Below are positions 54,147 to 57,754 of a stretch of 64,000 nt of DNA, in pieces. The stretch lies in contig NZ_LMSK01000001.1 in the NCBI RefSeq assembly GCF_001428385.1, positions 683,355 to 747,354 of the forward strand, in the 5' to 3' direction. The notes under the pieces are model-generated. The model was not told the DNA's origin and did not search any database. It was given only the letters and a program-made list of their open reading frames with translations. Position 1 is the stretch's first letter; each line of letters opens with the position of its first letter. Position numbers and translations under genes: made by a program. This DNA comes from Rhodanobacter sp. Soil772 (GTDB lineage: Bacteria; Pseudomonadota; Gammaproteobacteria; Xanthomonadales; Rhodanobacteraceae).

Positions 54147-55272
54147 TCACGCATCGACGCGTTTGGAACCGGCCTCGAGGCCGGATTTCAGGCTCGCCTC
54201 GATGAACTCGTCGAGATCTCCGTCCAGCACCTTCTGGGTGTCCGAACGCTCGATGCCGGTGCGCAGATCCTTGATGCGGCTCTGGTCCAGCACGTAGTTG
54301 CGGATCTGGCTGCCCCAGCCGATATCCGACTTGGTCGCTTCCAGCGCGTCGCGCTCGACGTTGCGCTTCTGCACTTCCAGCTCGTACAACTTCGCCGCCA
54401 GCATCTTCATCGCGGTGGCGCGGTTGGCGTGCTGGCTGCGACCGGTCTGGCAGGCCACCACGGTGTTGGTTGGGATGTGGGTGATGCGCACTGCCGATTC
54501 GGTCTTGTTGACGTGCTGGCCGCCCGCGCCGGAGGAACGGTAGACGTCGGTACGCAGGTCGGCCGGGTTGATGTCGATGTCGATGTCGTCATCAACTTCC
54601 GGTGACACGAACACCGAGGTGAAGCTGGTATGCCGGCGGTTGTCCGAATCGAATGGCGACTTGCGCACCAACCGGTGCACGCCGATCTCGGTCTTCAGCC
54701 AGCCGTAGGCGTAATCGCCCTCGACGCGGAACGTGGCTGACTTGATGCCGGCCACGTCGCCGCCGCTGACTTCCATCAACTCGGTCTTCCAGCCGCGCGA
54801 TTCGCACCAGTGCAGGTACATGCGCAACAGCATTTCGGCCCAGTCCTGCGCCTCGGTGCCGCCGGCACCGGCCTGGATGTCGACGAACGCGTTCATCGCG
54901 TCCATCTTGCCGGAGAACATGCGCTGGAATTCCAGCTTGCTCACCTGCGCATCGAGCTTGGCCAGGTCGTCGACCACCGAATGGGCGGTCTCGTCGTCGC
55001 CATCGGCGATCGCCATCTCCAGCAGGTCGCCGGCATCGGTGAGGCCGGCGGTCAGCGTGTCGATGCCGTGGACGATGGTATGCAGGCGGGCGCGTTCGCG
55101 GCCCAGTTCCTGCGCACGGGCCGGATCGTCCCACACGGTGGGGCTTTCCAGTTCGCGGGTTACTTCTTCCAGACGTTCGCTTTTTGTAGCGTAGTCAAAG
55201 GTACCCCCTAAGCGACTCGACGCGCCCACGGATGTCGGCGATCTGCGCAAGGATGGGATTGGTCTCGATCAT
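54147..55272 (-). CDS. prfB: Peptide chain release factor 2 (programmed +1 frameshift)
   Basis: RF2 recognises UGA and UAA. The gene is read in two frames. From ATG 55272, 25 codons ([20 protein letters not shown] ...) end at CTT followed by in-frame TGA (55197-55195). A +1 shift then gives GAC and continues to the stop at 54147, for a 374-residue product. [10 protein letters not shown] and the GGQ motif ([17 protein letters not shown]) are intact. The tripeptide codon-recognition motif of RF2 appears as SPF in [11 protein letters not shown]. Low RF2 favours the shift, giving autoregulation. Confidence 0.97.
55194..55209 (-). promoter_or_regulatory. prfB recoding site
   Basis: On the minus strand the bases read AGGGGGTACCTTTGAC: an internal Shine-Dalgarno-like AGGGGG, then the CTT slippery codon and TGA C. 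This is the standard RF2 frameshift signal; E. coli differs only in TAT for TAC. Confidence 0.95.
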
Positions 55273-55443: not shown

Positions 55444-57111
55444 TCAGGCCAGCGCCTGCTGATGCACCCCCTTGACCGCCCGCCCGGACGGATCGGCCGC
55501 GTTCGCAAACGCCGGATCCCACGCCAGCGCCGCCGGCGATGAACAGGCGATCGACTTGCCGCCGGGCACCGTCGCCGCGCAGGCCTCGCCCGGGAAGTGC
55601 CGTTCGAAGATGCGCCGGTAGAAGTACGCCTCCTTGGTTGCCGGCGTGTTGAACGGGTAGCGCGCCGCGGCCGCAGCGAACTCGCGGTCGCTGACCGCCT
55701 GCTCCGCGTGCGCCTTCAGCCCGTCGATCCAGCCGTAGCCGACGCCGTCGCTGAACTGCTCCTTCTGCCGCCACAGGATCGCATCCGGCAGCGCGCCGTC
55801 GAACGCCTCGCGCAGCACCGCCTTCTCGATGCGCCCCTGCCCCGCCATCTTGTACTTCGCATCCAGGCCCATCGCCACGTCGATGAACTCCAGGTCGAGG
55901 AACGGCACACGCGCCTCCACGCCCCACGCCATCATCGCCTTGTTCGCGCGCAGGCAGTCGTAGCTGTGCAGCGCGTCGAGCTTGCGCACGGTCTCCTCGT
56001 GGAAGGCCTCGGCCGACGGTGCCTTGTGGAAGTACAGGTAGCCGCCGAAGATCTCGTCCGAACCCTCGCCCGACAGCACCATCTTCACGCCCATCGCCTT
56101 GATCCGCCGCGCCAGCAGGTACATCGGCGTGGCGGCACGGATGGTGGTGACGTCGTAGGTTTCGATATGCCGGATCACCTCGGGCAGCGCGTCCAGGCCC
56201 TCCCAGAACGTGTAGACGAAGCCGTGATGCACGGTGCCCAGCGCGTCGGCGGCGACCTGCGCCGCGGCCAGGTCGGGCGAGCCGTCCAGCCCGATCGCGA
56301 ACGAATGCAGCCGCGGCCACCACGCCTCGCTGCGGTCGTCGTCCTCGACCCGCTCGCGCGCGAACTGCGCGGCGCAGGCGGCGACCAGCGACGAATCCAG
56401 CCCACCGGAAAGCAATACGCCATACGGCACGTCGGTCATCAGCTGGCGATGCACGGCCTGCTCGAACGCCTTGCGCAAGGCCGGTGCAGCCACGTCATGG
56501 CCGCGCGTGGCGGCGTAGTCGCGCCATGGTCTGGCGTAGTAGCTGCGCAGCTCGCCGCTGGCGCTGTCGTAGACATGGCCCGGCGGGAACGCCGCCACGT
56601 CGGCGCACACGCCGACCAGCGCCTTCATCTCCGACGCCACGCACAGGCGGCCTTGCGCATCGTGGCCCCAGTACAGCGGGCAGACGCCGATCGGGTCGCG
56701 CGCGATCAGGTAACGCTGCGCCTCGCCGTCCCACAATGCGAACGCGAAGATGCCGTTGAGCTTGTCCACGAAATCGCCGCCGTGCTCGCGGTACAGCGCG
56801 TTGATCACCTCGCAATCCGAGCCGGTGGTGAAGTCGTAGTCGCTGGCCACACGCAGTTCGCGGTGGTTGTAGATCTCGCCGTTCACCGCCAGCGCCAATG
56901 CGCCGTCGCGCGAACGCAGCGGCTGCGCGCCCGAGGCCGGGTCGACGATGGCCAGGCGCTCGTGCACCAGGATCACCCCGGCGTCGACGAACACCCCGCT
57001 CCAGTCCGGCCCGCGGTGGCGCTGGCGCTGCGACAGTTCCAGCGCCTGCCGGCGCAGCGCCGCCAGGTCGTCACCCGGCTGCAGGTCGAATATTCCGAAA
57101 ATCGAACACAT
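55444..57111 (-). CDS. asnB: Asparagine synthetase B (glutamine-hydrolysing)
   Basis: A 555-residue enzyme making asparagine from aspartate, glutamine and ATP. The N-terminal Ntn glutaminase starts MCSIFGIF, with Cys2 as nucleophile, and has RHRGPDWSG and VNGEIYNH. The synthetase domain has the PP-loop LLSGGLDSSLVAA and SGEGSDEIFGGY. The ATG at 57111 is fixed by Cys2; an upstream extension would bury it. A hairpin-terminator and a predicted Asn-rich leader peptide lie just upstream, indicating attenuation. Confidence 0.96.
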   Translation of the reverse strand: MCSIFGIFDLQPGDDLAALRRQALELSQRQRHRGPDWSGVFVDAGVILVHERLAIVDPASGAQPLRSRDGALALAVNGEIYNHRELRVASDYDFTTGSDCEVINALYREHGGDFVDKLNGIFAFALWDGEAQRYLIARDPIGVCPLYWGHDAQGRLCVASEMKALVGVCADVAAFPPGHVYDSASGELRSYYARPWRDYAATRGHDVAAPALRKAFEQAVHRQLMTDVPYGVLLSGGLDSSLVAACAAQFARERVEDDDRSEAWWPRLHSFAIGLDGSPDLAAAQVAADALGTVHHGFVYTFWEGLDALPEVIRHIETYDVTTIRAATPMYLLARRIKAMGVKMVLSGEGSDEIFGGYLYFHKAPSAEAFHEETVRKLDALHSYDCLRANKAMMAWGVEARVPFLDLEFIDVAMGLDAKYKMAGQGRIEKAVLREAFDGALPDAILWRQKEQFSDGVGYGWIDGLKAHAEQAVSDREFAAAAARYPFNTPATKEAYFYRRIFERHFPGEACAATVPGGKSIACSSPAALAWDPAFANAADPSGRAVKGVHQQALA

Positions 57112-57140
57112 GTTGAAAGTTCCTCGGTTGAGACCCAAAA

Positions 57141-57173
57141 CGAAAGAGGCCCGCACTAGGCGGGCCTCTTTCG
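57141..57173 (-). terminator. Attenuator hairpin in the asnB leader
   Basis: A 14-base perfect stem, CGAAAGAGGCCCGC / GCGGGCCTCTTTCG, with a five-base loop (CTAGT on the minus strand) is followed directly by TTTTGGG. It lies 29 bases before the asnB ATG. The 5' arm can instead pair with GGCGGGCC in the leader (57212-57205), eight G-C pairs, which would prevent the terminator. Confidence 0.85.
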
Positions 57174-57195
57174 CGTATTCAATGGAAACTTGCTG

Positions 57196-57318
57196 CTACG
57201 CGCGGGCCCGCCAACGGTTGGCGTTATTGTTCGCGCGATTATTGTTGTTGCCGGCCAGCACGAAGCCCCGCGCGGAAAGCGCGGTGAGGTTCAGGCAGCT
57301 GGCGGCGACGGGATGCAT
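57196..57318 (-). CDS. Predicted asnB leader peptide, 40 aa, Asn-rich
   Basis: From ATG 57318 to TAG 57196 the peptide ends in GNNNNRANNNANRWRARA. Eight of the eleven codons between 57249 and 57217 are AAC or AAT, and one more Asn lies earlier. Downstream Trp-Arg-Ala codons (TGG CGG GCC) contain the antiterminator sequence. Stalling for lack of Asn-tRNA would leave this segment free to pair with the terminator arm; reading to the stop would cover it. The ribosome binding site is weak; an internal GTG (57260, giving 21 residues) is an alternative start. Size and layout are as in his, thr and trp leaders. Confidence 0.72.
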   Translation of the reverse strand: MHPVAASCLNLTALSARGFVLAGNNNNRANNNANRWRARA

Positions 57319-57379
57319 GAGCCGACTTGAACAGATCGACCTGGCCTTGGCAAGTGCCGCGAACACCCCGTCGGGCGCA

Positions 57380-57754
57380 TCAGCTGTCGTCCGGGGCCGT
57401 GATCCAGCGGGTGGCTTCCTCGATTTCCGCGCCGTGGAACAGGCGGAACTGGGCCGGGATGGCGAAACTGAAGGCGACCGCCGTGCCGCGCAGCCAGTGC
57501 ACGTCGGTGACCAGCGCGACACGATCCCAACCGCTGAGATGGCGCATGCCCAGCTTGGCGTCGTCCCACACCGCGCCGGGGTCGAAGCCGGTGAAGTCGT
57601 CGGCCGTGACGTACAGCAGGCGCAACTTGCGGTTGAGCGCGAACGCCGCCTCGACATCCGGCACGATGATGTTCTTGTAATCTTCCGCCGTCACGTGGCC
57701 ATGGGCACGGAAACCCAGCGTACCGGGCGGCAGTCCTTCGATCAGTGCGATCAC
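57380..57754 (-). CDS. SpoIIAA-like STAS/SEC14 domain protein
   Basis: A 124-residue single-domain protein (MIALIEGLPPGTLGFRAHGHVTAEDYKNIIVPDVEAAF ... LLYVTADDFTGFDPGAVWDD ... VALVTDVHWLRG ... FRLFHGAEIEEATRWI). The pattern matches the SpoIIAA-like/DUF3478 STAS family, thought to bind lipids or act in stress. No operon partner: the asnB leader lies downstream and recJ upstream on the same strand. Confidence 0.85.
   Translation of the reverse strand: MIALIEGLPPGTLGFRAHGHVTAEDYKNIIVPDVEAAFALNRKLRLLYVTADDFTGFDPGAVWDDAKLGMRHLSGWDRVALVTDVHWLRGTAVAFSFAIPAQFRLFHGAEIEEATRWITAPDDS

Follow-up and report, generated by a model that had tools for sequence, protein, structure and literature searches.

Ribosome stalling at upstream asparagine codons appears to turn on asnB in bacteria of the Xanthomonas/Rhodanobacter group

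T-box riboswitches sense aminoacylation. The his, trp, thr, ilv, leu and phe attenuators (for example Rfam RF00513 and RF00506) are built from leader codons of the regulated amino acid, an intrinsic terminator, a mutually exclusive antiterminator and a biosynthetic gene downstream. For trp, superattenuation is described in the parts of PMC1183508 that treat it, and the passages of PMC7298713 on trpL/rnTrpL of Sinorhizobium meliloti describe a leader RNA that is made by attenuation and starts with the ATG of the leader ORF. The same elements precede asnB in Rhodanobacter sp. Soil772, and comparison among its relatives identifies a shared core of Asn codons, terminator, mutually exclusive antiterminator and promoter spacing. 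From this comparison it is very likely that the asnB leader is a ribosome-mediated transcription attenuator that senses asparagine via charged Asn-tRNA, a reading in which stalling, termination efficiency and the response to asparagine are inferred.

The window analysed is a stretch of 64,000 nt of Rhodanobacter sp. Soil772 (NZ_LMSK01000001.1), in which the locus was read directly on the minus strand and translated. Its features, from upstream to downstream and each with the evidence for it in brackets, are as follows.

57348-57353, minus strand: -35-like TTGCCA of a putative leader promoter (conserved spacing from the leader start)
57325-57330, minus strand: -10-like TCAAGT of the putative leader promoter, a weak match (conserved position relative to the ATG)
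57196-57318, minus strand: leader ORF of 40 codons plus TAG, probably leaderless with the A of ATG as +1 (sequence, translation, start-site comparison)
57217-57249, minus strand: putative regulatory Asn block NNNNRANNNAN (translation, control pieces, genome pattern search)
57205-57212, minus strand: 5' arm of the antiterminator outer helix, GGCGGGCC (tail-arm swaps, alignment)
57197-57202, minus strand: 5' arm of the antiterminator inner helix, CGCGTA, which holds the TA of the TAG stop (swap test)
57172-57177, minus strand: 3' arm of the antiterminator inner helix, TACGCG (swap test)
57137-57173, minus strand: intrinsic terminator, a 14-bp hairpin (57173-57160/57154-57141) plus TTTT at 57140-57137 (sequence, folding, alignment)
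57159-57166, minus strand: 3' arm of the antiterminator outer helix, GGCCCGCC, which is terminator 5' arm plus first loop base (swaps, alignment)
57121-57125, minus strand: Shine-Dalgarno-like GAGGA of asnB (sequence reading)
55444-57111, minus strand: asnB, glutamine-hydrolysing asparagine synthase B (sequence, NCBIfam, Pfam)

Direct reading and translation bear out the elements that the initial annotation had picked out: a 40-codon frame (product MHPVAASCLNLTALSARGFVLAGNNNNRANNNANRWRARA) from the ATG at 57318 to the TAG at 57198-57196, with eight Asn in eleven codons at 57249-57217; a 14-bp hairpin followed by TTTT, with arms at 57173-57160 and 57154-57141, a loop at 57159-57155 and a 5' arm that starts 22 bases past the leader stop; and complementarity between GGCGGGCC (57212-57205) and GGCCCGCC (57166-57159). 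The ATG of asnB follows at 57111, and its product, at 862.8 bits against a cut-off of 499 for NCBIfam asparagine synthase B and also classed as asparagine synthase by Pfam, makes by the NCBIfam assignment the same amino acid as the leader codons specify. The fold of the full leader has the terminator at its 3' end, with a z of -3.00 against shuffles. Scanning the window leader against Rfam gave no match at curated thresholds and none to the T-box covariance model; the best sub-threshold matches were Trp_leader (24.3 bits against a threshold of 41) and Thr_leader. Beyond asnB on the same strand, a short ORF (55195-55272) ends in RGYL-stop just before the prfB frame (54147-55250), an arrangement that presumably resembles the known RF2 frameshift site.

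The density of Asn codons sets the leader apart from its surroundings. Counted per 13 codons within a closed frame, Asn reaches a maximum of 8 in the leader; among 500-nt control pieces no count exceeds 4 in the 503 others from the window or 5 in the 1547 from related loci. A search of the 3.57-Mb genome for AAYAAYAAY-N0-9-AAYAAYAAY finds a single occurrence, at the asnB leader; the pattern is present in 59 of 147 family genomes, in many at the asnB leader and in some elsewhere; at the places away from the asnB leader the reversed control pattern matches too. In the blocks of 147 leaders, the interval from first Asn to last holds 470 AAC and 443 AAT codons and no Lys codons, the blocks being ones that were picked as Asn-rich and hence have Asn at their ends by selection, and the non-Asn codons inside them are mostly Ala and Arg. 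ARN repeats are a motif of Hfq, and the AAY triplets fit it, which raises the possibility that the repeats form an RNA-protein site, or an unstructured spacer, and that the ORF is incidental; an AAT share of Asn codons of 48% in leader blocks, compared with 17% within asnB itself at the named loci, could likewise mean selection for weak structure. This scenario has very little probability, given that AAA and AAG do not occur inside any of the 147 blocks although both are compatible with ARN (the block ends being Asn by selection), that an open frame with an ATG start is present in 191 of 193 leaders, that the distance from leader stop to terminator arm is 18-36 nt in all 161 leaders compared, and that the tail after the Asn block, which mimics the terminator 3' arm, ends at the leader stop. 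The AAT share in 33 long ORFs of the window is 25%.

For the comparison among relatives asnB was sought in 197 family genomes, 182 of which gave a match of some kind at E <= 0.001, often a distant one, and upstream sequence was compared for 149 of these. A single rule was applied, which asks for a closed frame with 3 or more Asn in 13 codons and for a terminator no more than 130 nt from the stop of that frame. Leader and terminator precede asnB by this rule in 126/149 family genomes, compared with 4/503 control pieces of the window and 2/1547 of related loci, and when at least 5 Asn are asked for the counts become 107/149, 0/503 and 0/1547. A further five family genomes have the Asn ORF with a terminator that the scan missed, 17 have no Asn ORF and in every case a divergent AsnB (63-68% identity), and in one the upstream region is truncated where the contig ends; the count per 13 codons is just 3-4 Asn in 21 of the 149. 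Where AsnB is at least 78% identical and enough upstream sequence is available, an Asn ORF with at least 3 Asn in 13 codons is found in 131 of 131 family genomes, 110 of them with at least 5 Asn.

Sampling across the order gave AsnB at E <= 1e-150 in 106 of 160 genomes, 78 of them outside the family, and 60 of these 78 upstream regions were compared (17 of family f8 and one of f10 were left out). The leader is present in 30/31 genomes of f2, where the single miss has a 65% AsnB, and in 3/3 of f3 (33/34 together), and the other families give 1/26 (f10 0/18, f8 1/6, f6 0/1, f5 0/1), the f8 pass being L275 with 4 Asn and an AsnB of 67%. The named loci are the best 80 of 591 asnB matches; among these the rule is passed by 14/16 of L031-L046 and 21/25 of L047-L071, with L035, L066 and L068 having the Asn ORF and a terminator missed by the scan. 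Among L072-L110 of the same 80, mostly other gammaproteobacteria, 2/39 pass the loose rule (L084 with 4 Asn, L100 with 3) and 0/39 pass with at least 5 Asn. The Asn run, whose conservation the initial annotation had named as support for its proposal, is thus kept before asnB in loci of Rhodanobacter, Dyella, Fulvimonas, Frateuria, Xanthomonas and Stenotrophomonas, and also of Lysobacter, Luteimonas, Pseudoxanthomonas, Thermomonas and Arenimonas. The resulting list of 194 leaders omits by hand L072-L110, L264-L290, L044, L051 and L067; in a one-rule recount of all 289 regions L084, L100 and L275 were the hand-omitted ones to pass the loose rule, none with at least 5 Asn. Named loci and other genomes share species, and 194 is not a count of independent species.

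Some loci at the edges of this distribution are of separate interest. In L074, a MAG of Lysobacterales (71% AsnB), there is a short leader, ATNNTNRR, and a terminator that the scan did not accept. L275, L074 and L084 all carry shorter Asn leaders before a divergent asnB (67%, 71% and 65%), which may represent an older form, one that arose independently, or chance. In L044, L051 and L067 the leader is absent and AsnB is 77-82% identical to that of the window, in records labelled Rhodococcus, Holophagales and Deltaproteobacteria, which suggests transfer or mislabelled contigs. Between terminator and asnB, L007, L009, L011, L022, L028 and L031 contain repeated GCGCGG-TCCATCCGCGC and CCGGCCATCCATGGCCG-like elements, sometimes in tandem, which widen the gap between attenuator and asnB; a motif of this type occurs in 20/194 leaders, and three exact versions of it are absent from the window.

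The antiterminator is positioned downstream of the presumed stall codons, excludes the terminator and finds support in the comparison of species. The Rhodanobacter pairing is that of GGCGGGCC with GGCCCGCC, leaders of the Dyella type have GGTGGGCC opposite the same arm, and in Xanthomonas and Stenotrophomonas CGATGCGGGT or CGATGCGGG pairs with a ACCCGCATCG arm; since tail and arm both differ between Rhodanobacter (GGCGGGCC/GGCCCGCC) and Xanthomonas (CGATGCGGGT/ACCCGCATCG), the two sides have changed together in a compensatory manner. Tails and arms were then swapped over species (154 and 140 unique tail-arm pairs; an earlier set had 161 leaders, 131 unique). Complementarity of a tail to its own arm was 22.60 for the outer helix, compared with 20.13 when swapped (sd 0.28, z 8.8, 0/20,000 permutations), and 12.81 compared with 10.99 (sd 0.17, z 10.6, 0/20,000) for an inner helix that the last codons and stop form with the bases before the terminator arm, examples of which are GCGTGT/ACACGC in 32 leaders and CGCGTA/TACGCG in 20. 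The antiterminator of the initial annotation is retained as the outer helix and refined by this second, inner helix, which uses the last leader codons and the stop. TAG is the stop codon in 164/194 leaders, which would fit stop bases that belong to the inner helix.

A structure-blind MAFFT alignment was made of 76 of the 194 leaders, picked for low 6-mer sharing. Outer antiterminator pairs are formed in 86.0% of cells compared with 79.9% when shuffled (0/500), with a covariation score of 0.181 compared with 0.101 (0/500), and sliding the antiterminator off register leaves 31-49% paired. Two measures should suffer least from inflation by relatedness, and on these both-sides changes number 4 against 2.9 in shuffles (8/500) and further pair types 10 against 9.7 (327/500), such that three of five antiterminator measures stand clearly above shuffles and the other two weakly or not. 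For the terminator the corresponding values are 94.0% against 84.4% (0/500), a score of 0.345 against 0.164 (0/500), 6 against 5.7 both-sides changes (357/500) and 17 against 15.6 further pair types (77/500). The covariation expected in both hairpins is thus borne out in the swap tests and on most of the pair-count measures, though not on every one, and it is the slide control together with the swaps that favours antiterminator pairing. The best contiguous antiterminator stem is just 5-6 bp in 47/161 leaders, and the structural tests leave out L131, L135, L215, L220, L221, L035, L066 and L068, where the scan missed the terminator.

The recurrence within clades of the tail motifs WRARA, GWAGV, RARPMRD and SLPRAGD could instead point to an arrest peptide, in which a specific nascent chain, perhaps together with free asparagine, stalls the ribosome in place of empty Asn codons. 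This is very unlikely: leaders differ in how their Asn residues are ordered, in how many there are and in how they are spaced (NNNNRANNNAN, LNNNANNN, NNANRNNLRANN, NNANTNNARN), the segment ahead of the block can be short or long, and the tail motifs change along with the terminator arm, by which they follow the RNA pairing.

A consensus promoter scan of the window locus reported no promoter, the -10 being weak. TTG[CA] starts 35-37 nt before the leader start in 170/193 leaders, compared with 38/1206 other ATGs of the same regions, the script having favoured, in its choice of leader start, starts with TTG[CA] anywhere 24-45 nt upstream; when only sites with TTG[CA] in that range are taken, the 35-37 spacing holds for 170/189 leaders and 38/152 control ATGs. 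The element is kept in 23/27 leaders with 3-4 Asn, and C stands at -1 in 91% of 169 unique leader sequences. A Shine-Dalgarno-like 5-mer precedes the leader in 2/193 cases (the leaders with a start, L195 having none assigned) and asnB in 143/194. Given that a -35 element would lie at this distance from an AUG whose A is +1, and that the leader lacks a Shine-Dalgarno sequence, the leader transcript is probably leaderless. A transcription start downstream of 57196, which the initial annotation had named as evidence against its proposal, is not what the conserved spacing indicates, since the promoter-like element places the predicted start at the leader AUG. The position of this element also bears on whether the hairpin merely terminates the SpoIIAA-like gene that lies upstream of the leader on the same strand and ends at 57380, with asnB using another promoter. 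This is very unlikely, as the promoter-like element lies between that gene and the leader, and as leader tail and terminator arm change together.

In folding models that stop before the terminator 3' arm is made, antiterminator probability in free RNA has a mean of 0.68 and exceeds 0.5 in 141/193 leaders; a ribosome on the second Asn codon brings the mean to 0.86 and the count to 180/193, one on the middle Asn codon gives 171/193, and one at the stop codon gives 0 by construction, the bases being masked. The modelled stalled ribosome raises the probability by more than 0.1 in 59/193 leaders and lowers it in 5, and L069 (0.03) and L250 (about 0) fail to form the antiterminator when stalled. Taking every second leader, no general excess of structure was found ahead of the Asn block or within it (mean z -0.42 for 62 and -0.53 for 97 leaders), nor was a universal protector hairpin (1:2, as in trp and his) found across leaders. 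With no strong conserved protector, the antiterminator appears to be what most leaders fold into by default. It loses in free RNA in 52/193, however, and for this reason a protector may exist in some clades; certain leaders, such as L145 (0.0004 free, 0.57 stalled), seem in the model to have one. AsnRS scored over its cut-off in 21/21 genomes tested, and Asn-tRNA may therefore report free asparagine, a possible amidotransferase route to Asn-tRNA left aside.

The attenuator reading of the Asn run and its terminator/antiterminator pair, as first put forward in the initial annotation, is supported by the cross-species comparison and would operate as follows. Transcription would start at or beside the leader AUG, as the promoter position suggests, and a ribosome would translate the leader during its transcription. 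When Asn-tRNA is scarce the ribosome would stall in the Asn block, upstream of the tail, leaving the tail to pair with the terminator 5' arm (outer helix 57212-57205/57166-57159, inner helix 57202-57197/57177-57172); the antiterminator so formed would block the terminator and asnB would be transcribed. When Asn-tRNA is ample the ribosome would reach the stop codon within the antiterminator and cover it, the terminator would form, and termination would leave a leader RNA of about 182 nt (57318-57137). A plausible if tentative extension is a reduced design, in which the leader is leaderless, there is no pause or protector hairpin, the antiterminator is the default and termination occurs only with a ribosome at the antiterminator-embedded stop. 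If so, a shortage of Asn-tRNA and a failure to translate the leader would alike leave asnB on.

The distribution of the structure was also approached with a covariance model (R1), which gave a match at E <= 0.01 in 49 of 276 sampled genomes of the class. The four best places (64-107 bits) correspond to leaders in four genomes from this order, and all other listed places score at most 40.2 bits; in its own genome the model scores 107.4 bits at the leader and 27.0 at the next best place. Sixteen lower loci (L325-L340), with no asnB in the locus and 0-4 Asn per 13 codons, were taken as chance terminators. Within 1500 nt before the ilvB, aspartate kinase and hisG matches of the same genome, which need not be the first genes of operons, no ORFs rich in Ile/Val/Leu, Thr or His were found. 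In the open-access literature searched, among the matches listed, no description of an asparagine attenuator was found; the initial annotation had remarked that it knew of none widely described.

On this comparative evidence the asnB leader probably represents a classical mechanism with a new amino-acid specificity, possibly with new design features. If this is true, asparagine joins the amino acids to which leader-peptide attenuators respond, and does so in an order to which plant pathogens and Stenotrophomonas maltophilia belong. Among the 194 leaders, of which 76 were aligned, stop codon, antiterminator and terminator have varied naturally and in concert, so that the set could serve to test how attenuation proceeds with a probably leaderless mRNA and without the hairpin thought to synchronise ribosome and polymerase. 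Whereas T-box regulation relies on direct tRNA binding, the asnB leader points to codons in a translated ORF. In this it is like the his, trp, thr, ilv, leu and phe attenuators, from which it differs in that its leader codons are for asparagine, that no universal protector hairpin was seen and that its promoter spacing implies a leaderless leader. The likeness to trpL of S. meliloti, as described in the relevant parts of PMC7298713, would lie in an RNA that starts at the leader ATG, and the difference in that trpL concerns tryptophan and an alphaproteobacterium. The trpL RNA also has roles in trans. Under the tentative reduced design a failure of leader translation would leave asnB on, the reverse of superattenuation as the pertinent parts of PMC1183508 present it for trp.
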